Assembly: GCA_030685235.1 (NCBI GenBank) | Contig: MU839219.1 | Location: forward strand, 50,551-114,550 | DNA length: 64,000 nucleotides | Direction of reading: 5' to 3' | DNA from: Copromyces sp. CBS 386.78 | Lineage: Eukaryota; Ascomycota; Sordariomycetes; Sordariales; Sordariaceae | In this document: positions 27,571 through 52,116 of the stretch, in pieces | Position numbering within the stretch: position 1 is the stretch's first letter | Layout: the number at the start of each line of letters is the position of its first letter | The notes under the pieces: model-generated | What the model saw: only the letters and a program-made list of their open reading frames with translations | Databases searched by the model: none | Told to the model about the DNA's origin: nothing | Position numbers and translations under genes: made by a program

Positions 27571-27575
27571 CATCG

Positions 27576-27598
27576 TCTTCCGGCGCGAGGCGGGAAGA
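27576..27598 (-). repeat. H1 3'-terminal hairpin
   Basis: TCTTCC and GGAAGA pair across an 11-base GC-rich loop, 5 bases from the left terminus. H2 has the same structure at 63483-63505, also 5 bases from its end. Helitrons use such a hairpin as the 3' termination signal. Confidence 0.7.
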
Positions 27599-27605
27599 AT
27601 TTACT

Positions 27606-27622
27606 GAAGCGTAGTTATTATA
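27606..27622 (-). repeat. H1 subterminal inverted repeat, 3' side
   Basis: GAAGCGTAGTTATTATA is inverted relative to 52100-52116 and differs only by two transitions. The offset from the terminus is 35 bases in both H1 and H2. Confidence 0.8.
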
Positions 27623-27639
27623 GGTCTAGAGATAGATTA

Positions 27640-27936
27640 TATTTATTGTAAATGCCAAGCTATATTCTACCTACTGTAAATAATTAAATTTTGACGGTCT
27701 ATTACAAATGCTAAGCTGTATTTTACCTACTTTAATAATTAAATTTTAACGGTCTACTATAAATACTAAGCTATATTTTACTTATTATAAATAATTAAAT
27801 TTTAACGGTCTACTGTAAATGCTAAGCTATATTCTACCTAATATAAATAATTAAATTTTAACGGTCTACTTTAAATATTAAATTGTATTCTACCTACTAT
27901 AAATAATTAGATTTTAACGGTCTACTACAAATATAT
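27640..27936. repeat. 56-bp minisatellite near the H1 3' end, about 5 units
   Basis: Units of 55-56 bp end in ACGGTCTAC and contain ATAAATAATTAAATTTT. A diverged version of the same 56-bp unit follows the H2 terminus (63540-63877), so the array belongs to the Helitron rather than to the LINE. Confidence 0.85.
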
Positions 27937-27954
27937 ATTTTAATTTTAAATTTT

Positions 27955-28205
27955 TAATATTTATAAATTTATTATACTTCTAAATTATTCTTAAAATATT
28001 TTAACTCTATTTTTTTTACAATTCTAAATGTTTTATAAATTTTTCATACCTTTAAATTTATTATACCTCTAAATTATTCTTAAAATATTTTAACTCTACG
28101 TTTTTTTATACCTTTAAATTTTTTATACAATTAAGTTTATTATATTTCTAAATTATTCTTAAGATATCTTAACTCTAAGTTTTTTATATTTCTAAGTTTT
28201 ATTCA
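27955..28205. repeat. 80-90-bp AT-rich tandem repeat, three copies
   Basis: The word TAAATTATTCTTAA begins at 27981, 28070 and 28149, each followed by TTTTAACTCTA or a close form. Almost pure A+T. No gene seen between it and 28278. Confidence 0.75.
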
Positions 28206-28278
28206 ATTTAAAAATATTTATTTTTTTATTGTTTAATAAAAAAAGGAGTTTAGGACTTATAGTGCAAACCCCACCCTA

Positions 28279-28925: not shown

Positions 28926-28929
28926 AGGG

Positions 28930-29310
28930 ATAGTATTAAAAATAGTATTAAAGCTAATAATATTAAAAATAGTATTAAAGTTCAAAATAGTATTGAAGTT
29001 TAAGATAATAAAATTAAAAATAGGGTAGAAGTTGAAAATAGTATTAAAGTTTAAAATAGTATTAAAATTAGATAGTAATATTCAAAATAGTATTAAAGTT
29101 GAAAATAGTAAAGTTAAAAATAGTATTAAAATTAAAAATAGTATTAAAGTTCAAAATAGTATTAAAATTGGATAGTAATATTCAAGATGGTATTGAAATT
29201 AAAAATAGCAATATTAAAGATAGTATTAAAGTTGAAGATAGTAATATTAAAGATAGTATTGAAATTCAAAATAGTATTGAAGTTGGCTAATAATATTAAA
29301 AATAGTATTG
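28930..29310. repeat. Imperfect short tandem repeat (AATAGTATTAAAGTT-type)
   Basis: Degenerate units of about 12-18 bp built on AATAGTATTAAAGTT with variants (GAAATT, AAAATT). On the plus strand it reads as a Lys/Ile/Val/Asp-rich repetitive peptide in two frames, and it may be the repetitive tail of the preceding remnant. Short ORFs within it reflect the repeat alone. Confidence 0.75.
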
Positions 29311-29479: not shown

Positions 29480-30830
29480 TAAATTAAAGTTATTATTATT
29501 ATTCCTATTATTCTTATTATATTCGTCCTCCTCAATTCTTATTAGTCTATAGTAAAAACGAATAGGTACCGAACGCTTTCGGCTTAGGCTTAGGCTTAGG
29601 GACCTTTAAACTACTATTAATAATAATATTTAATTCTTTCTTCTTCTACTCCTTCTTCTTCCTATAATTATTTTTATTTTGGAGGCTCTTTACCGCCCCC
29701 TCCAACTTAATAAAACGGGCCTCGACGATATCTTAATTAGGGTAGCTAGCCGGGGTAGCGATAGGGAAGGCCGGGGTAGCGATAGGGCGGGCCGGGGGGA
29801 TAGAATAGCCGGTAAAAGGAGGAGGGAAGGATTAGGGGGGTAGGGGCTGGAGGACCGAAGGGGGGACTATAGGGGTAGGGTTAAAATTAGGGTTAGGACT
29901 ACCTTCGAAGGTTTCGAGGGGTAGTAAGGTAGGGCGTTTAATAGCGTAATGTAGGGGCGTTGGGCTAGGGGCTTCAAAAGTTTCGAAGGCCGGGGGAAGG
30001 GGGCCGGGGATTGGGGAAGTATAGCAGCGAACCTTACCGTTGCGAACGCGGAGGACGATTTCGAATTTAAGCCCGAAGGTAAAATTAATAGAGCTACTAA
30101 ATTATAATATTAGCGAATATTTAAAAAAGAAAAAGGTAAGATATTTATTTAGGGATAATTCTTACTTTCTTAAAGCGATTTATAGGGCCGATAGTATTGA
30201 ATATATTATTATATAGTTTCCGTATAGGATAAATATTGTTAATATCTTTTAAATTTTAAAGTTACCGATAAATGGTATATATTTTAGGACGTTTAAAATC
30301 GTAAACGACCTTCTACTTTATATAAATAAAGTATTTCTTACTTTTACCTATTTTAATTTTAATATAATAGTATATATTTTTTATATAATATTAATACGGA
30401 ACAGTATAAGAATAATTATACGGAAGGCTATTATTGCCGCTATCTTTTTCGTTCTCTTTATTATCGTTATTATTAGTATTATCCTAGTAAATAGAAATAT
30501 TAAATAGGAAAAAATTTAGGTATAAATAATAATAATAAATAAAATAAGGAAATTAAGTAAGAAATAGGTATAAAATTTATAATTTTTCTTTTCTTTATTG
30601 AGGGGGGGATACTTTCTTCTACTTTTTTTAAAAATTTAGTACGGCAGGGGAGGAATTTGCCGGCTGGATTACGAGGCAACTAAAATAGACGACCGGGGGT
30701 GGTAGCGGCGGTTGGGGTGCCCGGAGAAGTAATAATACGGCGGCGGCGGCTAGGAGGCGCGGCGGACTAATTACGAAGGCGGGTGGGAGTTTTGGGGACG
30801 AGCGGTTGGGCCGAATTGGGTATATAGCTA
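29480..30830 (-). pseudogene. Unidentified Pro-rich gene remnant in H1
   Basis: A GC-richer island (29700-30080, and again 30640-30840) stands out from the AT-rich surroundings. On the minus strand, from about 30107 to 29737, one frame reads as a Pro-rich protein with a single stop (cores RVRNGKVRCY, AFETFEAP, RPIATPAFPIATP). It continues into a Lys/Glu-rich segment near 29700-29500. A second open, Pro/Arg-rich stretch at 30823-30570 is in another phase, so there was an intron or an indel. I do not recognise the family. It may be host-derived Helitron cargo. Confidence 0.4.
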
Positions 30831-30839
30831 GTAGTAGTA

Positions 30840-31945: not shown

Positions 31946-31947
31946 TA

Positions 31948-32398
31948 TATATTGTTAGGATGGAATTCTACTTAGCTAGGGGTATATAAGGATGCTTTTA
32001 TAGTTGTACAATAGTTGTACAACGGTTTCTAGCATCTATAGCCGTAGTGCAACGGTAAAGAAAATTTGCAACCGTGCTGCAACTGTGCTGCAACGGTAAA
32101 AAAACCTGCAACCGTCCTGCAACCGTTGCAACATCTGCAACCATAGGATTTTTGCACATATGACGTAATTGTCAAAAAATTTCTTACGGCATAGAAATTT
32201 TATGGAAGTTTCGAGGGTCATTGAAGTGAAAACGACCAAGTTTTTTTTCTTCAACAATAAACCTAACCCTAAAAATAAAAAGGGTACTAAAATGAGCGCC
32301 ATTTCTTGGCGTTTATTTTGGACCCGGCTAGAGGTCCGTGCCCTCTCTATTTAACGAGAAATCTTAGTTTAAAAAAATTTTACCGAACGGGTCTTTAG

Positions 32399-32431
<33 letters not shown>

Positions 32432-32890
32432 TAACTTCCCCTTTATAAATAAGAAAAACCAGCCCTTTCTTTAAGAAATTTGGCCTAGTGGCCAAGTGGT
32501 TAATAAAGTAGTTCTTTATCTTCAGATTCTTGTTCGATTCCTTGCTGTGGTAAAAATTTTTGTTCTTTTCAAATTAAAAAGAAAAAAAAAAAAAAAAAAA
32601 AAAATTGGATAAAAAAAAAAAGAAAAAAAAAAGGAAAAATATTAGCCTAGATTCGCGATGTCCCTTTGTAACCCTCGCGATTTCCCCTTGTGAAAGAATT
32701 TTTTTGGCAATTACGTCATATGTGCAAAAATCCTATGGTTGCAGATGTTGCAACGGTTGTAGAACGGTTGCAACACGGTTGCAGCTCATTAAACCGTTGC
32801 ACCACCCTATCCAAATCTGCAATGGTAGTAGATCTCTATACCGTTGTATAACTATTATACTATAGTAATTTGAACCCTTATATTGTTAGG
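31948..32890. mobile_element. Long-TIR DNA transposon remnant (MULE-like), non-coding
   Basis: Two arms of roughly 200 bp are inverted copies of each other. The best part is 32102-32186 against 32690-32775, sharing GTTGCAACATCTGCAACC and ACATATGACGTAATTG. The arms are built of repeated TGCAACCGT words. The 12-base word TATATTGTTAGG at 31948-31959 and 32879-32890 may be the TSD (9-12 bp), although about 17 left-hand bases before the matching arms are unexplained. Long TIRs and TSDs near 9 bp suggest a Mutator-like MITE. It is little affected by RIP, so young. The short ORFs in the arms are not genes. Confidence 0.65.
32482..32604 (+). mobile_element. tRNA-like SINE with poly(A) tail inside the long-TIR element
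   Basis: A Pol III box A (TGGCCAAGTGG, 32489-32499) and box B (GTTCGATTC, 32532-32540) are 32 bases apart, as in tRNA-derived SINEs. A 5-bp stem with a 7-base loop lies between them (32503-32519). Acceptor and T stems do not pair, so it is not a working tRNA. A 23-base A-run ends it (32582-32604). Another A-run of 32 bases (32399-32430) lies just upstream and may be the tail of a second copy. Confidence 0.45.
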
Positions 32891-33384
32891 TAAGTAGTAG
32901 TAATAAATTCGTTAATAGCTTCCCTAATACGAGAGTTAAAAAAATTATCCGTTATAATACGGATAGAATCCTAGTAGTAATAGGCTTGTTAACGGTAGCT
33001 CCCGGTCGGCCTTCTGCTTGGCCGTTAAATATTTATAATAAACCGATTTTCGAAGGTATTTCGGGAATTATATCGCCGAAAAATATATTACCCAAAATTG
33101 TACCGGGGGTAAGTATTATAGCTTTATTAGGAGGTTAGACTTCGTCTTAATTAGTATTAATTTTAATAGTTAAATTCTATAAAATAGCGTACGATTTAAA
33201 ATTCCTTCGAAGCGATAATTTAATTATTAATAGTAAGGTTAAATGTTTTTCGGTTGGCTAGCCGTATTTATAATATTTATATATTTTAACCGGGCACTTC
33301 TATAGTTTAGAATATATTTTTTCGTATTTAATAATAGGGGGCGGAGGTTATCTTCCTTTAAAACTACTAATTTATTTTCCCGTA
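32891..33384. other. H1 spacer left of D, no gene seen
   Basis: This contains segments that recur right of D: AACCGGGCACTTCTATAG with its flanks (33250-33336 against 41005-41092) and GCGTACGATTTAAAATTC (from 33186, against 41148). The order of the two segments differs on the two sides, so the original H1 sequence already held tandem or shuffled copies before D arrived. Confidence 0.6.
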
Positions 33385-33389
33385 GGAGT

Positions 33390-33641
33390 TATCACAGGGT
33401 TAGACCTGTGATGTGCTGTGCTGCACTGACTGCACATGTGCTGTGCCGACCAGAGCCCAGAGCTCTGGCCACGCACATATCATCGTCACGTGCAGCCTCA
33501 CGTGCCCGCGCACGGTCTGGTCTGTAGGGCTCTCGCCCATATACAGCCAGACCTCCGCGCACACTTCCTTCTCTCCTCCTTTCTCCTTATATAATAATGT
33601 ATATTTCACTATATCCTATACGGTGCCTTTGCCCCGTGATA
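33390..33641 (+). repeat. 5' LTR of D (252 bp)
   Basis: It begins TATCACAGGGTTAGACCTG and ends GCCCCGTGATA. It is rich in CpA/TpG and clearly spared by RIP. The overlapping ORFs on both strands are shadows of this GC-richer LTR. Confidence 0.93.
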
Positions 33642-34519
33642 GTTTGTTGCATTTAACTATTGTACTGCGCGCCCCTATGTTAATAAAAGAGGAAGATTGC
33701 CTATATTTCAATCGCGGTAATTAGTAATTAAGATTCGACCCTACGTATTCCCGACTTAAGTTGTAAACCTAGCCGTTAAATTAAGTAAAATACTAAGACG
33801 AATATTATTAAAATCGTTCGTACTCTCTTTATTTCCTTTATACTTAAAAATATATTAAATTTAATAATTAATATCTAATTCTAATTCTATTGCTCTTAGA
33901 GCTTAGTTTGTAACTGATAATTTTATTGCTATTATAGTTATTAGTGCTATCGCAATAGTTGCTAGCTTAGAATATTAAGACGATTTAATAGTTCTCGTTT
34001 AAACGCTCGAAGGCTTCTATTATTAAGTGATTAAAGTCTTAATCCCTATTTTTAGGCGTATAATTTCGCTAACTTTTCTATTTTTTAAGCCTTCTTCTCC
34101 GCTTTCTATCGCTTATTCTACGACGATGTAATTATAATTAGAGCCGACGTTCGCGACTTCGAGGAAGATTTTATTATAGTTAGAGAGGAAGTTGTTTATT
34201 TATATATTTGTATTAGAAATTTTAATTACGAAATTGCCTATAAGGAAAGTAATATTATAATTATTTGTACTTAATATTTATTTGCCGATTAGGCTAGCGT
34301 AAAAGATTATTAAGATTAAATTAAATTATTTTACGAGTAAATCGCTGCTTTTAAGAAAAAGTTTAACGATTTCCGCACGGTATTTGCGGCCGCTTTCTAA
34401 TCTTAGAAGGATTATTATTAAAAAATCTTTTTCGACCTTTATACCCGGTTCTTAAAGAATAGTCCGGCTCCCCTATCCCCTAGTTTAACCCTTTTGCTTC
34501 CTAGCGTATTTAGTAATTT

Positions 34520-35790
34520 TAGTAATAATGACGATATAATGAGTGCCGGTAAGAACGGTAGTGGCTATAGGTCGGTGTTGTGTATTATGGTTACCCCTGC
34601 TTTTGATAGTAAAGGATTATTAATTGAACGTACTACTAAATATCGCGCTTAATGTATGTGTATAAAATTTATTTAGGTAAATAAGTTTAAAATTTTTACC
34701 GACGAACGCCCTAAAAATTTTTTATTTATTTATTTTATTGAGGGCGTCCTATTTGAAGTTATTAAGACCGAATTAAATAAGGGTATTTTCGGTGAATTTT
34801 GTAAGTGGGCTATAGTTTTCGAATTAGTTAACGAATTAAATAAGAAGTACGATAATATTAATATTGTTATAGAGTCTTGCTATATTTTCGAAGACTTTAA
34901 AATATTTAAAAATATAAAATAGATTAACTTTAAGGAAAAGTTTATTATATTTGTTAATAAGTATAAGTTCGATAATAGTATAAAGATCTATTGTTTTTAT
35001 TAAAAGATTAGCGACTGTATTTATTTCGCTTTTTCTTATTAATATTCTTAGTTTATTAATAATAAATTTAACGAATAGTTTAAAACCGTTCGTAATTTCG
35101 CTAAAGTATTAGAGGATAAGGATTAGCGTGAAAAATAGACTAATTTATTTTATAAGGCTAATATAATTAATATTTTTACTTTTGCTGGACGTTTTAATAC
35201 TTCTGCGACTAAGGCGACTATTAATTAAGGTGGCGATGCAATAGATTTTAACGTTATAATTGAAATAGATATTTAAATATTTTATATAATTGAAATTAGT
35301 ATTTTTAAATATTATATAAAGATAGGTATTTATATTCGTTGCGGAAGGCCCGGCTATTATTCTATTAATTATTGCGTTCGGGTTAATTTTAAAAAGGAAG
35401 TTAAGCTTTGTAATAATTATAATAAAGGTTGTGGTGGTAATATTAGCAATATTAATAATAGTGGTAATAATTGTAATAATAGCGGTAATAATAGTATTTC
35501 TAATAATGGAGGTAATAGTAACTATAATAATAATAGCGGTAATAATAATAGCGGCGGTAATAATAATAGTAGTAATTAGTAGTAGTCCGTTTAGGGCTAG
35601 TATAATTATAGATAGTCGTGCTCTAATTATAGCGGCGGATGTTATATTAATATTATAAACTTTAATATAAGTATAGGAGCTCTAGCCCCCGGTATTCCGG
35701 TTCCTAGCTATTATAACTCCGTTCCCGCTTATTAGTCCGGTTTTATTGGCCCGGTTATAGGTGATGAAACTAATTCTATTTTAGGCTAGG
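34520..35790 (+). pseudogene. D gag remnant with zinc knuckle and Asn-rich tail
   Basis: A continuous frame broken only by TAA/TAG leads to a C-x2-C-x4-H-x4-C knuckle at 35331-35372, in which Cys1, the His and Cys3 now read Tyr. A strongly Asn/Gly/Ser-rich tail (about 35400-35580, AAT and GGT codons) and a Gln-rich end follow. The hydrophobic frame at 35431-35658 is a shadow of this tail. Gag would start upstream, in the 33700-34520 region, but I could not choose an ATG. Confidence 0.72.
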
Positions 35791-35929
35791 GAAATATATA
35801 ATTTCTTAATTAAATTGTATTTGGAAGTATGAATTTAACGGATATAGAGGAAATAATAGGACCGTCCCTATATAGTTAAATATTATTAAAATAAATAGAT
35901 TTTTAGTAAATAGCCGTTATAAATATTTA

Positions 35930-38900
35930 AATTTATTATATTTTTCTATTTATTTATTTTATAGACCGCGTAAATTGTATTGTATTATTTTCGTTAATAG
36001 TGGATATATTGCCCTTATTTTTATTAATTATTATTTCGTTTATTATTACCGTTTCCCTTTTTTTCCGCTCGCCGTTCCCAAACTATTATACCTTACGGAT
36101 AGCTAGGCTAAAGGTAGTATTACGTATTTTTCTAAATGTACAATATAGGTAGGAATTTATTATAAAGTTATTAATTTATTAATCTATAATTTAATTGAGG
36201 ATAACCCTATTATTTTAAATTACTTATAATTCGTTTATTACGCCCTAAATATTAATTAGCCTAATAATTCTCTTTAATTTAGTTCCGCTTATAAATAATA
36301 TAGCTATTTCCCGTCTAGGAATTTAAATCGTATTGCTCCGCTCTCGAGCCGCTACTTTATAATTCTGCGACCGCTAGTTTAACGTTTATATTAGAGTCTA
36401 ACGGTAGAGGATATAAATAATAAAGGCGAGCCTAATTAGTACGACGAAATAGTAATTATTAAGCGGCTATCTATTTCCGCTATAATTAGGCGTACTATTT
36501 GTTAATAATTTTATTATTTTAAATATAGGGTTGCTAACCGGACAGGTATTACCCCGTTCGGGAAAATAAAAGGCGGTAATATAATTATACTATTAGTTCT
36601 GCTCCCGGCGCTTTTTTTAGTACTTCGCCCGGCGTCCTACTATTAAGCTAGCGGCGTAAAGACTTTTACGGTAGATTACCGAATCCCGGTCTAATTTTAT
36701 AGTATTCCGGCTAGTCCTATTAACCCTAATAATATTAAGGAGTTCTTAGCCGCTATTTTTAATTAATTAGCGGAAACTTATAAATTTTAAATTATTTATA
36801 TAATTCGGGTTAATTTGGACCAAGATATTTGTAGGTTAATTAAGGAAAATAAGAAATTAGAAAAGGAAGGGCGGATTTTAGATTTTTAGAGTATAAACGA
36901 TAATTTTATATTAAATATAGTAGTAGAAGTATTATTAGGTAAAGGTTAGCGTTTTAAATACTTTTTCGGTAATAAGTATTATTGTTGGATTAATGCCCTA
37001 GTAGGGAAGGGAGACGAAGCTGCTTTAAGGGTTGTAAAAGTTTTTAATTTTGTTAAAATTAATGGTATTAATGACAATTTTCCTTATTGCGAGGAGGTAA
37101 TTAACGAATATTTTATAATAAATAGTATCGCTATTAATAGAATTACGTTTAAAAATGCGGTTAAATTTTATAAAAAAGTTAATAAATTTCTTAAGACGGT
37201 TGTAGAAATTTAAGCCAAATTCTTGCGATAATATTAGTATTATATGTAAATCTTTTTATAAGAGGGAGTAGATATTCTTCCTCCCTATAGGGTATATAAT
37301 TTAAAGATTGAATTCCGTTTAGGAGTAATCTTTCCCGCTTTTTATAGGCGTACGTTTAATTTTAATAAATTTAATATTATTAAAAAATAGGTCGATAATA
37401 TATTTTAAAAAAAGTTTATTAGGTTTTTATAATTAGAAGCCTTTATACTTTCATTCTTTATTAAGAAATTAGGAGGCGGAGTCTACGTTTATATTAATTA
37501 TTGTAGCGTTAATAATGTTACCCTTAAGTCCCGTTATTCCCTCTTATTTATTAAAGAAACTTTTAACGCGATTTACTATATTAAGATTTTTATAAAGTTT
37601 AATGTAATTACTACTTTTAATTATATCCGTATTAAGTAAGGATACGAATAGTTTACTATTTTTATAACCCGGTTTGGCTTATTTAAATTTTTAATTATTC
37701 TTTTTAGTTTATAAGGCGCCCTAAGTACGTTTTAGAATTATATTAATAATATCCTATATAATATTTTCGACGTTTATGCGATTATTTATTTTAATAATAT
37801 CTTTATTTATTCGGATAATATTAAAGATTATGAGTAGTACGTTAATAATGTTTTTAATAAGTTAGTAAAAATAGGTTTTAACGTTAATATTAATAAGTGC
37901 GAATTCTATACAATAAGAATAAAATATTTGGGTTTATTTATTACGTTTAGAAGTATTGAAATAGATTTAAAAAAGGTTAAAGCTATTATAAATTAATAAA
38001 TACCGGAGTTAAAGAAGTCCTTACAATTTTTTTTAGGCTTTGCGAATTTTTATTAAGGGTTTATAAAAGATTTTTTAATAATGGCCGTTCTATTTTACGA
38101 ATTTACGAAGAAAGATACTGGATAGTTTTAGGATGACCGTTATTAAATTGCTTTTAAAGTTTTTAAGCGGGTATTTATTAACGGACTTGTATTTAAAATT
38201 TATAATTGGATTAAGAAAACTGTAGTCGAGATAGACGCTTCTAATTGGGCTGCGGGTAGTACCCTTTCCTAGTACGGAGACGATAGTGTTCTCTATTTTA
38301 TTGCTTATTTTTTGGCTAAATATAATTCTTAGGAATATAATTATAATGTATATGATAAGGAGTTGTTTGTGATTATTAAGGTATTAGAGGAGTAGAGGCC
38401 GGAATTCGAAGGAATTTAATAATTATTCGATATTTTAATAGATTATAAGAATTTTTAGATATTTACGACTAATAAATAGCTTACTTAGCGGTATATATGC
38501 TGGTCTTAATTCTTATCCCGGTTTAATTTCCTTATTAAGTATATGCCGGATTCGAAAAACTTTCGTTTAAATACTTTAAATTATAAGCCTAATAATTGTT
38601 CGGATAACGAGGAGGATAATTATTTAGTCGCCCGTAAGAGGGTTTTGCTAGACCTATTTTAATTCGAAGAAGGCTATTTTCAATTTAATAACCCGGCGGT
38701 AGGGTTCTCTCTATATTTACTAGGCCTAAATGATTTGGATATTTAGTTAATTGATGATTTTATTTGTACGAATTATAAGATTTCCGTTTTTTTATAAAAA
38801 TTGGTTTCCTCCCTTATTAGCGGAGCCTGTTAATGGTTTATTATTATTAAGAAGGTTTTTTATAGGGCTTTTTTAGAATATTATATCGTTAACCGTATTA

Positions 38901-40330
38901 TGAAATGGCGCGACCGAATTATTATTAATCTTTACGATAAAAATCTTTAATTTTAGCTTATTAGTCGTTAGTATAATTCTTTGGGCGCCGGTTATTTAGG
39001 TTGTGACGTTACGTACGAGCTCTTGTAATACGATTTTTATTAGGAGGGGATATATAACGATATATGCTTTTTCTATAAAGGTTACTTATTTTATATAAAG
39101 ATTAAATTTTTAAAAAGAGGTTTAGCCGGTTATTTTAAATTAGTTGTAATCGTTTTCGCGTTATAGACTAATATTTTAATTGATTATATTATATTATTAC
39201 CGCTAAGTACTTATTTAGGCCAGACTTTTAAATACGTTACTATTGTTATTGATCGATTTATTAAAATATAGTACTATATCTTAATAATAATTTTAGAGGC
39301 GGAAGAATTAGCGGACCGGTTTATTGATTATATTTATTCGATTTATAGCCTTTTAGATAGTATATTTTCTAATAGAGGTATTTAATTCGTTTTACGGTTC
39401 TAGTCTATCCTTTGTAAGCGGTTGTTTGTGATTCGTAAATTTATTTCTATTTTTTACCTTTAGATAAACGTTTAAACCGAGTGTATTAACGCGGAAATAG
39501 AGTAGTTTTTGAGGATTTATATTAATTGGGTATAGACGGATTAGGTAAAGTGGCTGCTATTCGCGGAGTTCGCTAGCAATAATACCGTTTTATCGTTAAT
39601 AGGGATTTTGCCGTTCTTTGCTAATTATGGCTATTACCCGCGTATGGGTATAGAACCTCGTACCCTGCCGCTACTAGATTTCTCCCCGGCCTAGTTTAAG
39701 GAATATTATAAGGCTAACGAATTAGCGGACCGCTTTTAGCGGATTTAGGATTTCGCTATCTAGTAATTTCGTTATATATAGGAATGGTACGAGGATAACG
39801 CCAATAAAAAACGAATCGACTTTATTAAATATTGTACTAGTAATATAGTTTTCTTTAATATAGTTAACTTTACTAACGGACGACTGTACGCGAAATTGTA
39901 TCCTTACTGGGAAGGACCCTTTAAAGTTGTTTACGTCGAATTGTATACGGTTTATTTTGCCCTACCCTCTAATATGAAGTGCTTATTAGTTTTCTACGTT
40001 TTTATAGTATAATTATAGTTTAGTTAAGGCTTTTTAGGCTAGCTTACTACGATAGATGTTTAAGTTAACGAAGGTAGGGTTATAATATGGACCGACGGTT
40101 AGGAGGAGTACGAAGAGTGGGTATTCGAACGTTTTATAGATTGTTAGTAGATGGGTAATGGAAATACGAGGTTAAATAGAAGATTAGTAACCCTATTTAG
40201 GAACCTATTAGTAATATTATCGACTGTAAATATTATTTTTAATAGTTCTACTACGAGTATTCGGATAAATTAGTTCCCCTAAAGGTTTAGAGGGTTTTTG
40301 AGCGATTCGCCGCCGATATTCTAATATTAA
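35930..40330 (+). pseudogene. D pol remnant: protease, RT, RNase H, integrase, chromodomain
   Basis: The protease active site reads Asn-Ser-Gly (family Asp-Ser/Thr-Gly) at 35996-36004. The RT box reads Tyr-Phe-Asn-Asn at 37787-37798. RNase H spans about 38080-38480, keeping DASNWAAGSTLSQYG-type sequence. The integrase core is at about 39180-39560, followed by its tail and, near 40100-40240, a chromodomain-like segment that changes frame once. Frame integrity elsewhere is good and inactivation is by RIP substitutions. It would have been the autonomous partner for GGAGT-type insertions. Confidence 0.85.
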
Positions 40331-40570
40331 CGACGATGTTAATACCGGTAGTCTCCGAGCTATTACGGCGCTACTCTAGCTATTTAGTACGGTAAGAGAC
40401 GGCCGCTACTATAAAAGATAGGATGTAGAAGGATATAGAGGAGGGTTTATACTTCGCGTTTAGGAAGATATTTTAGAAGTTGATAGATGTTTACGAAGAT
40501 AAGAGGTTATAGGAGGGGTTTTAAGTCTATTATTTAACATATATATAGATTTTCAGTTTTTCAAGCTTTT

Positions 40571-40585
40571 TTTGAGGGGGGATAG
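40571..40585 (+). other. Polypurine tract of D
   Basis: TTTGAGGGGGGATAG directly before the 3' LTR. Confidence 0.75.
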
Positions 40586-40837
40586 TATTATAGGGTTAGA
40601 CTTGTAATGTACTATATTGCATTAATTGTATATATATTGTGCCGACTAGAGCCCAGAGCTTTGGCCACGTATATGTCATCGTTACGTGTAGCCTTACGTG
40701 CCCGCGTACGGTCTGGTCTGTAGGGCTCTCGCCCATATACAGCCAGACCTCTGCGCATATTTCCTTCTCTCCTCCTTTCTCCTTATACAACAACGCATAT
40801 CTCACCATATCCCATACGGTGCCTTCGCCCCGTGATA
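40586..40837 (+). repeat. 3' LTR of D (252 bp)
   Basis: Same length as the 5' LTR. The inner edge reads TATTATAGGG and the first 80 bases have lost most CpA/TpG, while the outer edge (CCATACGGTGCC to CCCCGTGATA) is spared. Confidence 0.93.
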
Positions 40838-40842
40838 GGAGT

Positions 40843-43290
40843 AGTCTATCCTTTAAACGGAAGGGGGAACCGTTTTGTATTTTAATTTAATGAATTGAAA
40901 GCGAATATATAGTACGATTGGCTTTAATTAATTAGTTTACGAAATTATATTCGATATAGAATTCGGCGAAGAGAGCTATATCCTTTAAATTGGAATCGGT
41001 AGGCTCGGTTAGCTAGCTATACTTATAATACTTATATATTTTAACCGGGTATTTTTATAGTTTAGAATACGTTTTTTCGTATTTAGTAACGGAAGTAATC
41101 CTAATTAACGTTAATCCTAATAATTAAATTTTAAAGGATAGCGTACGACTTAGAACTTATTCGAAGCAATAATTTAGCTATTAATAATAGGGCTAAAAGT
41201 AGCGTTAAGGGTAAATATTATAGTTTTCTTAAGAGGTCTTCTATAGCTACGCTTAGGCGTAAAGTACCTTATAATTTATATAGCGGGATATTAATTAATT
41301 AAGTACTTTAACGGGTATTAAACAGTAATATACTTAAAGTAACGAATAAGTAGCCGATTAATTCGCGTTGAAGTAGTAATATTAATTAGGAATATTATTA
41401 GATATTTTTATATAAGCGCTTATTGGAAGTAGCGGCCTTAGGAGGTTATTAAGGGCGGTATTAATATATTTGAATATAGGCGAAGTAGGCAGAAGTGATT
41501 TACGTTTTAGGGTTTACTGCGTTAGCTATAATTAATAGTAATTTTAATCTTATTTTTAAAATGAACCGGTATTCTGCACTACTAAACGTATTAAATTCGA
41601 TATTAAGGATATTATTTATTTTTAATTAGGATTAAAGAAATAGGGTAATATTAAGGATAAAAAAGCGGCCGTCTATTAGAAATGAATAAACGTCCGTGCA
41701 GGAACGTATATCGATTATACGTAGGCGAGGGCGATTAGATATAATTAAAGTATTTAAATTTAATATTAGATTTGTATTAAGACCGCTTGAGACGAATTAG
41801 GAAAGGGAGGGAAAAGTCCGGAAGGGGAATTTACCGGTAAATATACAACGATTTTATAATATTAATAGGGGTAGGGTTAAATTAATAACTATTTAAAATT
41901 TTATAGTATAAATTTAGGGCGCTAGCGATAATAACGAGGGTAGTATTAATCTATTTACCGTTTTTGATTATACGGCGCTTAACGGCTAGTTCGAATATTT
42001 TCCGGACGGCTTCTTCAATTATATTACTTTTAAAAATAATATTCGAATCGTAGAATTGGGTAGTAAAGAAGTTATTAATTTTAGGAATGGCGGGTATAAC
42101 GATAGTATTAATAGTTAACGGTTAATAAACGATAAAGGAGAAATGGGGAATATATATTTAAATAATAGAATTACTATAGTATATTACTTTAAACTGTTAT
42201 TTATTACCTAATCCTTCTATTTACTACTTAATCCTTCCCTTTATTACTTGCTCCTTCCCTTTACTATCTACTCCTTTTATTTATTATTCGGTCTTTCCCT
42301 TTACTATCCGGTCCTTCTATTTACTACTTACTCCTTCCCTTTATTGCCCGCTCCTTTAACGTTCTTACGGTTATATTTTAGCGGTTATATGATAAATTAA
42401 TTTATATAATTAAATTTTATAAATGAATTAATTTGTATAATTAGATTTTGTAGGTAAATTGATATATTATAACTTTTATTCTAAAGTTTTCTATATATTT
42501 CGCTAAGAATTTTAGCCGATAATTGGGAATACGTAAGGCGCCTTATATATAACGTACGCTAGAGTAAAAGTAGTATTTTCTAATATATTGTATTTCGGAA
42601 TGATTTTTAGCGCTTTAAAGGTTTTAATTGGAAATTACTAGTATAGATTTTTAAAATGGCCGTAGTAATACGAAATTCGGCGGGAGTAAATTGAATTTAG
42701 GCTCTTAAAGTTGGCTAGTTAGTTAGTTAGATATAGTACAGTAATATAATAGGGTATTTTAATAAGTATATTTTACAGGCGGAGCCGGGAATAATACGCC
42801 TCAATTCCTTTGCGTTAAGGTAATAATAGTAGTTAGCCGATAAGACGGTTAGATATTTTTATATAGGCGCCTATTAGAATTTGTAGCTTCGAAGAAACGT
42901 TGGTAAAAATGGTATTAGTATTGTAGAGATTATTATAATTATTATAATTAGTAATATTGTAAGGGATAATATAAAATGTATTATTCGGTATTAATATTAT
43001 TTATTTTAAAGAGAATTTAAAGAATAAAGTAATATTAAAAATAAAAAGGCGGTCGTTTGTAGGATAAAGGTAAATAGTAATTATTAAAAGGCGGTCGTCT
43101 ATATAAGAACGTATATCGATTATATACGGGCGAAGTTGATTAGATAGGGTTGAAGTGCCCGATTTTAATAGTAGGATTATAAATTAGTTATATTACCGGA
43201 ATTAAATTAGGTAATATTTCCTAAGGCCGCCGTTTAATTATATTGGTATAGCGTTTAAATTAGGCTTTATTACTCTTTATCCCTATGGTA
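40843..43290. other. H1 region with duplicated segments between D and the Rep/helicase gene
   Basis: Segments at 41370-41770 recur in diverged form at 42800-43170, including ATCGATTATACG-type words, GCGGCCGTCTAT and TATTTTTATATAGGCGC. A third, weaker relative lies at 51380-51620 near the other end of H1. No coding frame is supported. The interval also holds the 20-bp minisatellite at 42201-42358. Confidence 0.55.
42201..42358. repeat. 20-bp pyrimidine-rich minisatellite, 8 units in register
   Basis: Eight units of exactly 20 bp (form TTTACTACTTACTCCTTCCC) follow one another without spacers; units differ mainly by C/T. The unit length is not a multiple of three, so it does not encode a repeat peptide. 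Confidence 0.88.
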
Positions 43291-46200
43291 TTAATATTAA
43301 AAGGGTAGTCGAATATAATGCCCTATAGAGTTTTAATTTTCGAGACGGCTATATATATTAAATTAAATGTAAAATTATTTTTAGAGATATTGAGGATAGC
43401 GGTATTAATAATTGCCCCCTATAATTTATATATTGTAATAGTATATACAATAGTAATAGGGAATTGCTTTCTCGTATAATAAATAAACCCTTTTATATAA
43501 TTTCGGGTAAACCGGAAAATAAATACAATTTGGGTATCGAAACCTTCCCGTTCAAAATAGGGGGGACTAATATATTTAAGGAAATTTATTAATAAAGTAT
43601 AAGGCGCAATTTTTCGAAGTTCGACGTTGTAATGCTATATAATATTGTAAATAATATTAATAGTACTATTTACTAAGCCCTTTTCCGTTTATACATTCTT
43701 AGTCAATATAATTGTAGCCTTAATTATTAAGGGTAATTATTTATAAAAGTTATTTACTATATTAGAATCTACTTCGCTAGCCCTGCTACTAGTATAATTA
43801 ATATATATTTATATATATAGGGACCCTAACCTTTTAAAATAATTTTAATTATATTCTTTAATTTAAGCGTTGGTTAAATAAATATGTAAGGTATTATTAA
43901 ATTTGCCGAGATTGTAGTATTCTTTTTTTAATATAATCTTTATTCGTATAAATAGGAATTCTTAATATTATTATATTAATTGAAAATATTATAGACCTTT
44001 AAATATATTTCGAAATACTATTTACTTATTATTAACCTAGCGAATAATTTATTATAGTTAAATAATTTAGTTAAATAATTTATATATTAACTTTCCGGTA
44101 ATTTCTTTATTATTAAGGTTCTTATCTACTATTATATCTACTATAGCCTTCCCTATAATAGGAGGCAATTAATAGAAATCCCTAATTAATAGAATACTTA
44201 TACTACTAAAAAACTAATTATTTTGGCTTAGAAAAGCTTATTTAAATTTTTTATTTAAATAATATATTATCCTAAGGCCGATTATAGACTTTTTATCTAT
44301 AATAAAATATTGTAAATAATAGAGTCGTAATTATAAATTTACTCGATTATTCGGGGTAAAGTCCGGTAGTATAGTAATATTATTCGTAATTGGAAGTTGG
44401 AGTAGCGAGTATAGGGTAGATTCGTTAATATTATTAGCTGCTACTTTTATAGGAGTGGCGCGTATAATAATAGGATCTTTCTAATCGTTAGGATACCGAC
44501 GGTTATTAAAGGTTAATTCTTGAAGCCGGGTAGAAAGTAGGCGAATAATATACAATTTACCAATATTACTTTTACTATTAAATTGTACTTTAAGGGGTAG
44601 CCGATGTAGATTGTTATTGCGAAGGAAGGTTTAGTAATATTCGACGAATGTATTATAAATAAGGAGTTATTGGGTATTAAAATTATTTATAGCCGTACTA
44701 GTAACCTCTTCGGCTTTAAAATATTGGGGTTATTAACCTTTATACTTTTCTAAAAGTTTTGGGCATTAGAAATAAATCTATTATATTTATTATAATAGTA
44801 AATTCTTTAATTATATTCTAAATTAATAGGACGACGGTTAAATATATTAATATCCTTATTAGCGCTTATAGGCCGATCCGGAATTTTTTAAGCTATACGT
44901 ATTTAATTATCCTACTATATATTTTCCTTTAGCGGTATAATTTTAATATTATCTTTAGGAAGCGGTTCGAATAAATTACTATAGTAGTCGTAGTTATAAT
45001 TATATATTTTTTAATAGTAGTTATATACTTTAAATTATATAGTATATCCTATTTTATTAATTATTTTAAAATTTATATTGAAACGATAAAGGTAGTAAAG
45101 GGTTATTTTCACTCGATAGAAATCTTTATACTAATCCGAAGTAACGCCGCCTTTATATTTAAATATATATTTAAATATATAAGGTTCTTTATAAAAGCGT
45201 TAGGGCCGTTTATTCTAATTAATATAAATATAAAATTGGAAGTATATTAATTTATTTAGTTAAAGGCTTCGTTAAAAATATTTATTATATTAGGCAATAT
45301 AGTTATAAACTTTATTATCGATATTAATAGTAAAGTAATTATATACGTCCTTAAGTTAATAATTTATAAATTAGACTATTTACGTACCTTTATATAGAAG
45401 TAAATTAAATAAATAATAATAAATTTTTTAGGTAAATTAGTCCCGTTTAAATACTAATTTATTTATTAATTGAAATGCGAACAATATTAATAGTATATAG
45501 TTAGAAATACGAAAAAGAATTTGAGTGGCGAATTATTAGTAAGAGAGAGATTTAATTTCGGCCTTAGAATAATATTTAATAATATAGTAAAGTACGGCTT
45601 TAATACTAATATATAAAGAAATATCCGTATTCACTAACTAATTTAAGGATATAGTAGGGTTCTAATTATTAATATAGGTATCGTTACATATAGTATCGAA
45701 TATATTGTAAAGGGGGTTAAATCCCCGTATAATATACAGGCGGTTATATATATTTCGGGGGAAGTTAAAATAGTATACGGCTTCTTCGCTTATTGAACCG
45801 TCCGGAAGTTTGTAGCGCTGTAGATAGTACGTTATACTATATTAATACCGGTTTATATAATTAATAATACGGGATAACGTAGCGAAGGTTAATTATTTAT
45901 ATTCCCTTATACGAATAGTAAATATATTACCTTCGGCCGTATTAAGAGTTTTATAGGGCTCTAAATTAATACTTATAATATAAATACTCTAAAAAATAAT
46001 AAATATATTTTTACTTTTAGCCGTTTCAAATTAGGCTTTAAATATACCTTTATATTAATAAATATTATAATTATAAGGACTATTATAAGCCTATTATTTA
46101 TACCGGTCCTAATAATTAATAATATAGAATTTCGATTTAAGGATATATTCTTGAAATATATTATATTTCTTTTAGAAATACTATATATTAATTATTAAGT

Positions 46201-46897
46201 TATTACGAAAATTCTCCTATACAATTTTACCCCACTAGCGTTCGTTATTATCTAGCTATTTATTATATTGAAGTATAAGTTTAATTAACGATTACTAATG
46301 TAAATTAGTAGGGGTAAAGGTTATAAAGAGAAATGGCATACTTAGCCTATAGATAAATACTTCTAGATTTTGTCTTTTAGTTCCTTAATAAGGCCGGGTA
46401 TTATATAAAGTATTAGTATATTTTATAATAGAGTAGAAAATACGTTCGCCTTAGTCCGTCCGGCCTTTAAATACGGCTTTAAATTCCTCTGTTTAAAGGT
46501 TACCCTCCCTTAAATTATAATAGATATAGAAGGAATTCTTTTAATTAATTTAGTTCTTTATTAGGGTATTAAAAGTAATAAAGTAGAAATAAGGATAGTA
46601 AGTATATTAATTATCCTTCTACTTTATACTATATTTAATATAATTGGTATAAGAAATATTATATAGCCGTTAAATTATAAAATTAGTTTTGCCTTAGGGA
46701 TAAAGGGTAGGGAATATTTAGGATAATAATAGTTATAATTAGTTAAATTCGCTAATAGTGGTAGGCCTAGCGAACGGTAGTATTTATATAAAACCGCGGA
46801 TTCGGCCTTGCTTATCGGGACTTAGTAAGTATAATAATTAATTTAGCTCCGGTTCTACTTCTACTTCTAGCGTTAGCGGAGAAAATAAGATGGGAGT

Positions 46898-47117
46898 TGT
46901 CATGGGGCTAGAGCCCTGGGGTTAGACCTGGCTGATGCCAGGTCTGTAAAGCCATCTGCGAGGGCTCTGGTCCGGATACTCCGGCCTTGGCACCACGGTG
47001 CACAAAACCCTTTTCCGACTGCACCCTTCTGGTGCAGTCTCCTTTCCTCTTTGTTAAATATAGCATTTCAACCTTATACGACTGCTCGCTGTGCCTTACT
47101 CTTGTAGACCCGTTATA
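46898..47117 (+). repeat. 5' LTR of E (220 bp) with perfect hairpin
   Basis: AGACCTGGC and GCCAGGTCT form a 9-bp stem with loop TGAT at 46924-46945; GGGCTAGAGCCC is a second palindrome. The LTR differs from its partner at only a few positions, all transitions in what I compared. Confidence 0.93.
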
Positions 47118-47235
47118 TTATATTTGACCCTCTTTTCAACGACCTCGTGCTATCGCCTGTACGCCCAAAGAGTCTCCCTTCGTTGCAACCGTTTCCTCTC
47201 TGTAACGAAATCCCTCATCTTCCCCCGCCATTACG

Positions 47236-48300
47236 ATGTCTTAGCAATAGCTTCCGCAAGTGCCCTGGGCGAACACCTCGCCAGAGCGATACCGACAATT
47301 CGCTTCGTCTATCGAATAGTTCATCGCTGAGGTCGCTGCTTTTAAGACTTCCCCCCTGCTCGATTCGCCTTCGAGGAAGCTAGTCCTTCCCTATTTCGAG
47401 AAATTTTCTGGGGAGAAAGTAGACTTTGAGACATGGGTGCTTAGTGCCCAAGCTAAGCTCCACGTTGATGGCTTCGCTATCGGCGACTCTGAAGCGTAGT
47501 TTTACTACCTGCTCGCCAGCCTGTCGCCCCCCGTTAAGCGCCCCTTCGTTTCGTTCGCCTCCTCCCTTCGTTCGCCGTAGGAACTCCTCGATAAGCTACG
47601 GCTTACCTACGGCGATCCGAACCCTAAGAAGTGCGCCGGCCAAGAACTCGCTTCCATCCGTCAAAAGAGCAAAGAAGGGATCGCATCCTTCTTAATCAAA
47701 TACGAGGAAATTCTTCACCGCGCTCAGGCAAACGCCTGGTCTAACGCCGCGAAAATCAACTCGCTAACGTACGCGCTCAACGACTACTAGAAACAGCGAC
47801 TCGACGATTGTATTAACGTACTAGAATAATACCTAGATTTACTCACGTACTTACGCAAGTTTAACGGTAATATTTTTTTTATCTCTTCGAAATAATAATA
47901 ACCGGTTAAAGATAACGGAAATATGCTAATAAGTATCTCTACGACGAAAATAAAAAATAGCAACAGGATTCCCTCTAAGTTATAATAATAATAGAAGGAG
48001 GAGGGCAAATATACGAACTACGGTAGCGGTTCCCACTAGTCTAAGAAATATAAGGCTAGTAAAGGTACGAAAATAAATAACGTTACGGTCTGTAGTCCGG
48101 TTAGGGGTGTAAGTAGTTACAATAGCAATAATTAAGAGGAGGAATTTACAGATTGAATAGTACTAGGATAGCAGCCCTAAGAAGACTATAATAGAGAGAA
48201 GTCTATACGTCCGCAAAGGAGGGATCTCTACAGCTATTGAAGTACGGCATTTACTAATTAAATAGCTAGTCAACCTTCTTCCACCTCTCTATACGTAACC
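47236..48300 (+). pseudogene. E gag with RIP stops and mutated zinc knuckle
   Basis: The ATG at 47236 is followed almost at once by TAG codons in Gln positions. The frame then runs without indel for 255 codons to a knuckle at 48010-48051. Readable cores include YFEKFSGEKVDFETWV, LASLSPPVKRPF and LTYGDPNPKKCAGQ, typical of Ty3/gypsy-type Gag. The knuckle spacing is C-x2-C-x4-H-x4-C with all three Cys now Tyr and the His kept. Beyond it the frame holds TAA/TAG and a few TGA (a CGA origin is possible) and its true end is unclear. ORFs at 47091-47695 in other frames are shadows. Confidence 0.8.
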
Positions 48301-48820
48301 GAAAGGTACCTGCTATAAAACGTAACCGTAGGAAGGTAGCAAGCGTAATATTTTGTAAGTATAAGGATTACTAGGCCCGCCCCTAGCGAAGGGTGTATAT
48401 TGAACTGAGGCTCTATAGTCACGGTGGTAATAAGGGCTCTTACTAGTTGGAGAAGTAGAGCGATACGAAATATAGAAGTAATAATTCTAATCTAACTACC
48501 TACAGGGTATAGATTTGCTACTTAGTAGAAGAAGTTCCCGGATAGGCAATTTCTAAATACCCTGTAAGTCTTAGTGCCTAGGCCATTAGGTACAACTCTA
48601 TAAGGGTAGGTGCCAGAGGGTACTACCAATTCGGGTAGGAGCAAGTAGTCGTATAGCGTTTATTTAGGGGCTTAAATGGTAATGATTTTTGCTTGGTGTC
48701 GTTGATTTTCTTCCCCATTCTGTGCGTTAGGTCGGGTGTGGCTGTCGGGCTGGATCGTTGGTCGTTCTTTCGTATACCTTAGCTTTTCTGCGTCTTGTGC
48801 GGTAGGCCTGCGTCTCTTTA
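48301..48820 (+). other. E 3' non-coding region
   Basis: No gene seen. An inverted pair, ACAGGGTAT and ATACCCTGT, lies near 48502 and 48568 and could form a stem across a 60-base loop. Confidence 0.5.
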
Positions 48821-48837
48821 GGGGAGCAGGGGGGTAA
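48821..48837 (+). other. Polypurine tract of E
   Basis: GGGGAGCAGGGGGGTAA directly before the 3' LTR. Confidence 0.8.
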
Positions 48838-49057
48838 TGTCATAGGGCTAGAGCCCTGGGGTTAGACCTGGCTGATGCCAGGTCTGTAAAGCTATCTGCG
48901 AGGGCTCTGGTCCGGATACTCCGGCCTTGGCACCACGGTGTACAAAACCCTTTTCCGACTGCACCCTTCTGGTGCAGTCTCCTTTCCTCTTTGTCAAATA
49001 TAGCATTTCAACCTTACACGACTGCTCGCTGTGCCTTACTCTTGCAGACCCGTTACA
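48838..49057 (+). repeat. 3' LTR of E (220 bp)
   Basis: It starts TGTCATAGGG and ends CGTTACA. Same length as the 5' LTR and nearly identical. GGAGT follows. Confidence 0.93.
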
Positions 49058-51766
49058 GGAGTAGAGGATAGAAGGTTGGGACTAGAAGCTGGAGCTTGGG
49101 TTAGAGTAAAATACGGAGGAGGTTTAGAATTATAAATAGGATTGAAATTAATATATTAAAGAAGTAATTATTCGGTTTATTATTATTTATATCCCTAATT
49201 ATTTAATTAATTAATAAATTAATTTAATTACGCTTAGTTAATTATAAGATTCGGTATAGCGGTAATTTCTTTATTATCTTTATTATTTTTATTAATTTTA
49301 TTATTTTCGTTAATTTTAATATTTTTTTTTAAGAATTTGGGTAGGGATGCGATTAAAGATATTACCGTCCTTTAGGAATTGAAAAAGGCGGGAGTTATTA
49401 ATAATAATATTATAATAACCCGGATAATTATTTTTTAAATAGTTTAATTAAATTTAAATATTCTACTTATTAATATAATAATTTCGATAAAATTATTATT
49501 ATATTTATTTTTAATTATTTGTATTCTAGGGGTAGAGTATAATAATATTTAATTCTTCTAGTAAAAGGGGTAGACGGGTATAAATTATATTAATATTTGG
49601 AAAAAAATTAATAATATAGTTATAGTATTAGTATTAAACTTTATAAATAAAGTAAACGTCGATATATATATAGACCCGAATAATTAATTACTCTTTAATT
49701 AGTATAAGGGTAAGTAAATCTATATTAATATTATTGAAGTCTATAAAATTCTTAGCGGAGTAAAAGGGTATATCGTTAGGCCTTTCCTTTTTTTTTTATA
49801 GGCGTAATGTTTATATATATTGCGCTTGATCCGCAAATTTAATTAACATTTATAGTATTGATTATATACTTCTTATTTAATATTGAATATAATATTATTA
49901 AATATATTTATATAGACCTCGTTTCATTTAAAGATTACTTTATTTCTAAAATATAAATTATAGTTAGGAGTAAAGGGTAGATACTATTACTAAAAAGGGG
50001 GATTAAAATAAAATATATATTTTCGGTCTATTAAATCTTTTAATTTTAATTAAAGGATAATAAATTAGGGCTACGTTATATCCGGGTTAGGCGTAGCGGG
50101 CGTAGGCGTTTTAGGAACGCCGGTAGGAGGATTGCGAGGATATAATAATATTAACGATAATAAGGAAGAAAAAAGAAACGTTAATAGGATATAAGGAAAT
50201 AAGAGACTATATTGATTATAATTATTATTATTATTATTTTTATCCTAAAGATACTTTAAATACCGAACTATTTTATAATTATTAATGTTTATAAATTCGC
50301 TATAATATTATCTTCTTTCGTACTACCTATAAAACGCCTATTCTATAAATTATTAATATATTTTTATAATAATAATCGGGAAAGGGGCCGGATAACCTAC
50401 TAGAATTTTTATCGGGTTTAAAATTAGGATTTATATAATAAATATAAAACTGAATAAAGTTTGGGTTTTAATAACGAATATCCTTTAGCCGAATAATATT
50501 ATATTCGTTATATTTGAATTAAGCTAAATTAGAATTAAAATTATAATTTTAATTATTTTAATTAATTTTAGCTAGGCTATTTAATATTAATATATTAAAG
50601 GATAATTAGGCCGGGTTATATAATATACGTAGAAATAGTATAAGTGAAATTTCTTTATTATAACGCCGGTGAATATAATAGTCCCTAATGATAAATTTAT
50701 AGGTTCGTCGAACTTCTACCGTAAGGGGTAAATCTTATAAATTTATACCTCTTTTAAAATACGAAGGCTTTAGTATTCGTATACCCGTTGTACGCTATAC
50801 TATTATACGTATATGACTATTAATAATAGTATTCTATATTAGCCGCTAAGGTGGAGTAAAGGATGTAGGGGTTAAAGATTATAAATAGTATATTGTAAGC
50901 GCTATAAGTAACGCTATAAGAATTCTTTAAAAGGGATCGGGAACTGGCGCCGGCGTAATAAGTATACCGGGTATAGAAGCGGCTAAATTTACTATAGCCT
51001 TATAATTACGAATAAAGTTTATAACTTTAGGTAAATTAACTTTATTCTTCGCTTAAATATTGTAATATTGAAAGTACTATTAGACTATCTTATTTAGATT
51101 CCGCTTACTAATAAATTTAGTTAAGGGTAAATATTTTTTATAAGCCTTATACTATTTTATAGCCTCTTTTTTATTATCGTTTTAAAAACCCTATCCGGAA
51201 AAAGGAAGTTATATTAATAGAGGAAGTTCAAAATTAAATAGAGTAATAGAAGCTATATCCTATAATATATATAGTATATAAAGTTTATTTAAGGAAGAAT
51301 TAGTATAATTATAGCGTTAAATATAACGAAGAGAAGAAGAACGAATAATAAGGCTAAATTAGTTAAAAGTACTAAAGTAGGCTAGTATTAATTATTTTAA
51401 AAGTAGGCTAATTATTAAAAGTAATATCGATTAGGGGTAGTCGCTTATATATAAACGAAGGCGGGTATATATAGTCGATTGTCGCGAATAGGCTAGTATT
51501 ATTTACTCTAAAAATATATTAAATAATAAAAGTAATTAATTAATTATTATGTAAATAGCCGATATAAAGGCTATTAAAATCTAATCCGTATATAGCGGCT
51601 ATACGATTAATTGTAATAATTATTTAGTTTAATTAATAAATATTATTAAAAAAGGTAGTATTTAATAGTATAGAGTCGAAATTAATTATATAGAAGCGAA
51701 AGCGGGTAATTATAATCGCAATATACAATTTTGTAAATTATAGTAGGAATAAAGTAAAGTTTTAAG

Positions 51767-51897
51767 GACCTAGGGGATACCCCCGGGGACCCCCGTATAT
51801 AAAAGGGGTTATAAGAGACCCGGGGGACACCCTTAGGGACCCCTATATATAAAGGGGGTTATAAGAGACTTGGGGGATACCCCCGGGGACCCCCGCG
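51767..51897. repeat. 50-bp GC-rich tandem repeat near the H1 5' end
   Basis: Three units start at 51767, 51817 and 51867, exactly 50 bp apart; the last is partial. Each contains GGGG(A/G)(C/T)ACCCC-type self-complementary sequence that could fold. It lies about 470 bp upstream of the start of the Rep frame and 220 bp from the 5' terminus. Confidence 0.88.
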
Positions 51898-51924
51898 CAT
51901 CTACCGACGTGAGTATAAGCTATA

Positions 51925-52020
51925 ACTAATAATAGGAACGGATTGCGTGTACGGGCTGAAAAAGTTTTGACTAATAATAGGAACGGATTGTTTAGTTTAT
52001 GGACTAATAATAGTACGAAG
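51925..52020. repeat. Short direct repeats ACTAATAATAGGAACGGATTG
   Basis: Two near-identical copies begin near 51926 and 51970 and a third, diverged copy near 52003. They lie between the 50-bp array and the H1 terminus. No gene seen from 51300 to 52100 apart from these arrays. Confidence 0.7.
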
Positions 52021-52099
52021 AATTTATAGGGGTATGGGCCCATTATAGAGAAGCTACGCTATGTTCGCTCACTTCGTATAAATACTTTATTCTCTAAAT

Positions 52100-52116
52100 T
52101 ATAATAGCTGCGCTTC
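52100..52116 (-). repeat. H1 5'-terminal inverted repeat
   Basis: TATAATAGCTGCGCTTC (minus: GAAGCGCAGCTATTATA) is the last Helitron sequence before the LINE A-run resumes at 52117. Confidence 0.8.

Follow-up and report, generated by a model that had tools for sequence, protein, structure and literature searches.

Evidence for a RIP-inactivated, Helitron2-like transposon that splits a LINE and itself grew through nested insertions

What has driven the two halves of a long interspersed nuclear element (LINE) 24.5 kb apart? The question is raised by a 64-kb stretch of DNA, referred to here as the window (contig C141, positions 50551-114550), from a searched genome of 49.8 Mb that is fungal by its relatives. 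The low G+C content of the window (28.7%) is accompanied by a TA/AT ratio of 1.33 and a (CA+TG)/(AC+GT) ratio of 0.33, values that match the imprint of repeat-induced point mutation (RIP), and no open reading frame of 150 amino acids (aa) is listed within it. The original prediction, a short reading of the window's sequence, had assigned the interval 27571-52116 to a Helitron of the Helitron2/Helentron group. On the evidence assembled below, this interval is very probably a RIP-inactivated, Helitron2-like rolling-circle transposon with its genes on the minus strand, which was inserted into a LINE and later enlarged by three nested insertions, the unit itself measuring about 13.8-14.6 kb. The element constitutes a new family of a kind (Helitron2-type) already known in fungi.

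The interrupted LINE provides the first line of evidence. Its left flank matches the minus strand of the window in three pieces, the last of which ends at 1721, and beyond the element the LINE resumes at 52118 from position 1722. The match thus breaks at 1721/1722, and the halves are consecutive with an overlap of two bases, as the split had been described. A 300-base query made from the joined flanks was scored against 40 of 140 candidates, and every one of these ran through the junction. Among the 30 rows spanning query positions 1-300, 22 comprised 297 bases, one 298, six 296 and one 295; since most empty rows thus hold 297 bases rather than 300, the filled LINE site carries three extra A's. 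Two further insertions behave in the same way. The empty site of the copy on C4 is found in the window itself at about 18540 (flanks continuous over 18317-18896), and that of a copy nested on C151 lies within the window element at about 50402-50418, where the alignment is fair but RIP-mutated; in both, the filled site again gains three A's. The C4 row gave no useful alignment as a second empty site for the nested C151 copy. All three insertions with empty sites therefore show zero target duplication, as is characteristic of the Helitron superfamily and as had been predicted.

The three extra A's fix the tips to within those A's and indicate that, of four border A's, three are the element's own and one comes from the target. 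The LINE site entered is A-rich, as had been noted. A strict T/T insertion is not borne out: T's do flank both ends on the gene strand, but the empty sites assign only one of these four T's to the target and the others to the element. Read on the gene strand, the target resembles T-N-(A/T)-T|(A/T), close to TNAT|A and unlike a TT dinucleotide. A T occupies position -4 in all 30 right ends read and an A position -2 in 21 of them, while among the 30 left ends an A comes after the site in 21. TNAT|A is the target given for FoHeli1/2 in the text of PMC5148889 (one legend there has TNAT and T), and it can be read here as well, subject to the choice among equivalent placements of the A's. 

The second line of evidence comes from the tips. 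A genome search with both ends recovered the left tip (27571) at 34 places and the right tip (52116) at 37, of which 30 each were read for their boundary. Left ends are preceded by AA in 30/30 cases and begin with CATCG (25), TATCG (4) or TATTG (1); right ends finish with CGCTTC (20), CGCTTT (9) or CGCTAC (1) and are followed by A at +1 in 30/30, at +2 in 29/30 and at +5 in 30/30. A single boundary is accordingly common to every end read on each side, while flanks farther out appear unrelated, and both predicted tips stand. Half of the left ends (17/34) are followed downstream on the same strand, at no more than 2.5 kb, by a right end in the correct orientation, compared with two accompanied by a wrongly oriented one. 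A further left end of the same family is visible in the window at 63475-64000 (C141:114025), running off the contig end. On C151 (85431-85463), two family copies lie head to head about 36 bp apart, with CCCTAACCCTAA in between; a link to telomeres suggested by this sequence was dropped, as no family end was found on C31, C61, C64, C97 or C107, which are among the telomeric contigs listed.

The arrangement of the ends is that of Helitron2. The motif TGAAGCGTAGTTATTATA, starting at 27605, and TGAAGCGCAGCTATTATA, read on the other strand from 52117, agree at 16 of 18 bases (counted by eye), which bears out the inverted repeats predicted at the right tip and about 35 bases inside the left one. The 5' repeat lies directly at the 5' tip in 30/30 right ends, with 16-19 of 19 bases preserved, in keeping with the 0-2 bp distance from the 5' end that characterizes Helitron2; the 3' repeat is recognizable in 30/30 left ends (15-18 of 18 bases) and lies just upstream of the 3' hairpin, again as in Helitron2. 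The 21 bases of this hairpin, TCTTCCCGCCTCGCGCCGGAAGA, are identical in 19 of the 30 left ends; the remaining 11 differ by substitutions.

The third line of evidence is the RepHel gene. In the C4 copy, DUF6570, Rep and PIF1 fall in one minus-strand frame (frame identity by arithmetic), and a single tblastn match covers the full Rep-helicase stretch. Both PF14214 and PF05970 score above their cut-offs there, giving the combination of a Rep (HUH) domain and a PIF1-type helicase in one protein that defines Helitrons; PIF1 also exceeds the Pfam cut-off in C151. The gene in the window is ruined by RIP: of the two domains, only PF14214 was detected in the frames scanned. The predicted minus-strand gene with Rep and Pif1-like motifs is thus upheld for Rep in the window, whereas its helicase part is recovered from C4 and C151 instead. 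Transversion columns across three to five copies are distributed over the codon phases of RepHel as 178/60/92, mostly at third codon positions (p 2e-15), and no codon-phase bias was found in the other stretches tested (p 0.08 to 0.97). Among 21 protein matches, the best are helicases of Fusarium oxysporum together with one unnamed protein, which share about 30% identity with the RIP-mutated translation, and a PDB search with the helicase returned PIF1-type helicases and ATPases only. In a tree of 39 rows, the family is placed inside fungal RepHel, adjoining P0099 and near proteins of Neonectria and two from Fusarium. A second Helitron gene set from the same genome (C191, C8, C97 and C91) stands beside the window family in this tree, with its long branches flagged.

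With the boundaries fixed, the size of the unit can be read from other copies. The C4 copy measures 13,816 bp and is collinear with the window copy, in agreement with the predicted unit of about 14 kb; the C151 copy measures 15,436 bp, or 14,579 bp after subtraction of a nested 854-bp relative and three A's. The window copy reaches 24.5 kb because one terminal inverted repeat (TIR) element and two long terminal repeat (LTR) elements were inserted into this unit. These three, all with their own repeats, correspond to the long-TIR element and the inserts D and E of the original prediction. Both LTR elements share GGAGT flanks. The shorter is perhaps the youngest insertion here, as judged from its weaker RIP imprint (46.7% G+C) and LTRs that are 97% alike; no domain match was found in the two of its frames that were scanned. 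A unit of 14 kb leaves the predicted room for cargo, whereas the remark that this is large among fungal Helitrons applies only to a mild degree, elements grown to 14 kb having been published before (PMC6431247).

Seven long copies are recognized (window, C153, C172, C151, C48, C4 and C114). Eight long left-right pairs were listed initially; that of C151:2726 with 37049 was dropped, its right end being shared with another left end. In addition, both tips occur together at a single locus in thirteen short copies of 823-1413 bp, each of which matches the C4 copy over 59-99% of its length; they are likely non-autonomous passengers of the element. Coordinates of all features are collected in Table 1.

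Table 1. Features of the Helitron2-like element and its surroundings, in window coordinates
Feature	Coordinates	Strand	Basis or remark
Whole Helitron2-like element with nested inserts	27571..52116	- (gene strand)	Shared tips and empty sites; three adjoining A's also the element's, side not assignable
5' terminus with 5' asymmetric inverted repeat TGAAGCGCAGCTATTATA	52100..52117	-	End reads
3' terminus: hairpin TCTTCCCGCCTCGCGCCGGAAGA, then CGATG	27571..27604	-	End reads and fold
3' asymmetric inverted repeat, immediately upstream of the hairpin and some 35 bases in from the 3' tip	27605..27622	-	End reads
56-bp tandem repeats adjoining the 3' end	27649..27933		Short-copy matches; region also in short copies
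RepHel gene (DUF6570, Rep, PIF1 region)	43284..49795	-	Split by the insert 46898-49057; many stops
Helitron_like_N (Rep) domain PF14214	46127..46642	-	32.1 bits, cut-off 28.9
Second gene-like block	29549..30799	-	Exon-like 30572-30799, 30152-30483 and 29549-30095, with two intron-like gaps; edges approximate, by eye
Nested TIR element	31968..32897		Arms about 218 bp, 72% alike
Nested LTR retrotransposon	33390..40837	+	LTRs about 250 bp, 86% alike; GGAGT on both sides; RNase H above, reverse transcriptase below cut-off
Nested short LTR element	46898..49057		LTRs about 218 bp, 97% alike; GGAGT on both sides
Interrupted LINE, left part	24571..27570		Match to the window's minus strand
Interrupted LINE, right part	52117..55116		First ~1.2 kb matches window 1722-550

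Also part of the Helitron family are the 7 kb that follow RepHel on its downstream side, and within them a stretch of 1.3 kb looks like a second spliced gene with at least three exons. A reading with somewhat less than even odds is that the autonomous unit carries, downstream of RepHel and on the same strand, a second multi-exon gene that was kept in frame by selection during the active life of the family and that is present in the seven long copies. It would be an accessory gene in a lineage exposed to RIP, perhaps captured from the host, where pieces on C28, C41 and C43 might be its traces. The competing explanation, for which the chances appear about evenly balanced, is that the block is a neutral captured fragment without any working second gene. 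The block occurs in all seven long copies and, among the best candidates, in pieces at C28:143548-144104, C41:171139-171387 and C43:279764-279861; these pieces stand in other contexts, as a captured fragment would predict. Against neutrality, transversions are very scarce in element positions 2001-3600: this stretch and 4801-5600 show 7-17 transversion columns per 400, compared with 27-166 in their neighbours (with three copies, the low-transversion stretch starts about 0.8 kb closer to the tip). Moreover, in an alignment of five copies, all five indels in the exon-like parts are multiples of three, compared with 1/6 in the intron-like gaps and 1/6 in the upstream part; the contrast of 5/5 with 2/12 gives a Fisher p of 0.003, and that with the introns alone 0.015.

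Several observations count against a selected second gene. The exon borders were drawn after the alignment had been viewed, so the test is post hoc with respect to its edges, and the indel count omits the part that follows the last exon-like piece. The exon transversions by phase (3/7/12) give p 0.06. Relative to the C28 piece, changes in the block do not favour third codon positions (16/26/16, p 0.18), and its intron-like sequence has changed no faster than its exons (7/274 and 58/1753 transversions, respectively), which lowers the likelihood of a second gene. No protein homologue was found at E ≤ 1 among 834 candidates, and Pfam gave no match for the window's left stretch or the exon-like pieces. 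Taken without exon borders, the two halves of 2001-3600 have indels of 7/4/1 and 7/11/7 by remainder of three, an ambiguous pattern.

The C28 locus, with 55% G+C and without signs of RIP, contains a GT...AG intron-like gap and an open frame of 209 aa, which in our reading of the alignment is shifted relative to that of the element by 7-base insertions; on account of this shift, the piece is probably a relic. A single zf-HYPF match to it in Pfam (13.5 bits, cut-off 23) was disregarded, and searches of PDB and NCBIfam with the same piece gave no match. Other stretches were considered as genes and set aside. Element positions 4801-5700 show no in-frame bias of indels (7/8/6 by remainder of three), and uneven transversion phases at 3358-3957 and 5758-6357 of the C4 piece (three copies; p 0.018 and 0.039) were not repeated with five copies. 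A scan for open frames based on universal stops was uninformative and failed to reveal even RepHel, because RIP creates the same stops in several copies.

For the element as a whole, three alternatives to a Helitron2-like transposon have to be weighed. It is very unlikely to be a canonical Helitron (Helitron1) whose ends carry an inverted repeat by chance. Helitron1 also has Rep and PIF1 domains, and the single 3' hairpin would suit it; however, the gene-strand ends here read (T)TGAAG and CGATG(TT), not the 5' TC and 3' CTRR of Helitron1, the inverted repeats recur in every end read on both sides, and the best matches among named proteins are RepHel proteins of Fusarium, which PMC5148889 places together with Helitron2. 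Equally improbable is a Helentron proper, a Helitron2 relative with an endonuclease. T's at both ends and subterminal inverted repeats are Helentron-like (PMC4067079), but neither an endonuclease nor an OTU domain was found in the frames scanned, which did not comprise every frame of the element and in which RIP lowers sensitivity, and the target at the nested empty site is not a TT dinucleotide. The Helentron part of the original label is thus unsupported, since the endonuclease domain was not found in these frames. That two elements were fused, a short Helitron on the right and an unrelated 7-kb element on the left supplying one tip, is a suggestion to which the left 7 kb lend some colour by showing no coding periodicity in a pooled test, but it is extremely unlikely given that the same left block occurs in all seven long copies found and that short copies also carry both tips.

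The Helitron2-like assignment also has evidence standing against it. The hairpin predicted at the left tip is present, but its fold (-5.7 kcal/mol) is modest taken alone, with z -1.5 for the window and -1.0 for C4. At the 5' end, a weak GAAGC/GCTTC fold is no better than shuffled sequences (z -0.01 and -0.11 on two right ends); the Helitron2 end architecture is borne out in its inverted repeats and 3' hairpin, whereas the 5' hairpin enclosing the 5' repeat, which also belongs to the Helitron2 definition, is weak. For C. globosum relatives, PMC5148889 reports no such hairpin. In four of the seven long copies (C153, C172, C114 and C48), left and right ends were matched up solely on their order and strand, and C153 and C48 gave no match in the Rep search. 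Finally, the RepHel tree has no Helitron1 rows that could serve as an outgroup, and the long branches and odd composition of its RIP-mutated rows are flagged. The Helitron2 kind of the element is retained, its ends agreeing with the descriptions in PMC3627910 and PMC5148889.

Among the closest described elements, FoHeli1/2 of Fusarium oxysporum (PMC5148889) share several features with the family: a protein that combines Rep and PIF1, asymmetric inverted repeats, a 3' hairpin, the TNAT|A target, short non-autonomous derivatives, and RIP-mutated copies (reported in F. solani). They differ in their termini, which start with TCAG and end with ATTTT, in their size of 5-6 kb compared with about 14 kb, in lacking the additional 7 kb and the second gene-like block that these contain, and in their 5' hairpin, which is not clear here. 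FoHeli3-5 from the same paper are also large (9-11 kb), with termini TGCCT and CTCCTGT, and FoHeli3 has an extra open reading frame without known domain; that frame lies upstream of and opposite to RepHel, whereas the block in the window shares the strand of RepHel and lies downstream of it. Helitron2 of Chlamydomonas and other organisms (PMC3627910) likewise has its 5' repeat at the tip and its 3' repeat just upstream of the hairpin, with nearly all copies free of target duplication, but the Chlamydomonas elements insert between TTTT and T or C, and the distance of the 3' repeat from the end is about 20-30 bp there and about 35 bp here. Helentrons and their HINE/DINE-1 partners (PMC4067079) resemble the family in having at least two T's at both ends, partly the element's own, and abundant short partners; theirs encode an endonuclease and often OTU, the domains sought above. 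The gene-like block has a parallel in fungal TET/JBP transposons, some of them Helitron1 and Helitron2 elements with an accessory gene (PMC12730594), though no TET/JBP or other Pfam match was obtained for it.

Fungal Helitron2-like elements that show RIP, have short partners and insert at TNAT|A are thus already on record, as are sizes up to 14 kb and accessory genes (PMC5148889, PMC6431247 and PMC12730594). No description of the present ends or of a spliced second gene downstream of RepHel was found in a literature search that did not use the end sequences themselves as queries and whose scope excluded Repbase and most subscription papers.

By analogy with Helitrons in general, RepHel would nick the 5' end (the right tip in the window), its helicase would peel off one strand, and the 3' hairpin together with the subterminal repeat would stop the process at the left tip, after which the strand would enter a T-N-A-T|A-like site without target duplication. 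RepHel may also have served as helper for the short copies. In the window, the element would have entered an A-rich site of the LINE and then taken up its three nested insertions. Duplication-free insertion, fixed asymmetric ends, the third-position bias of RepHel and short derivatives with both ends are the directly supported parts of this scheme.

The locus therefore exemplifies a large Helitron2-type family of a RIP-active fungus for which complete boundaries, empty sites and short derivatives are all established. The ends of this family differ from those reported in Fusarium. A second gene, if real, would add to the accessory genes of fungal Helitrons and might have a role in transposition or in escape from RIP or silencing.

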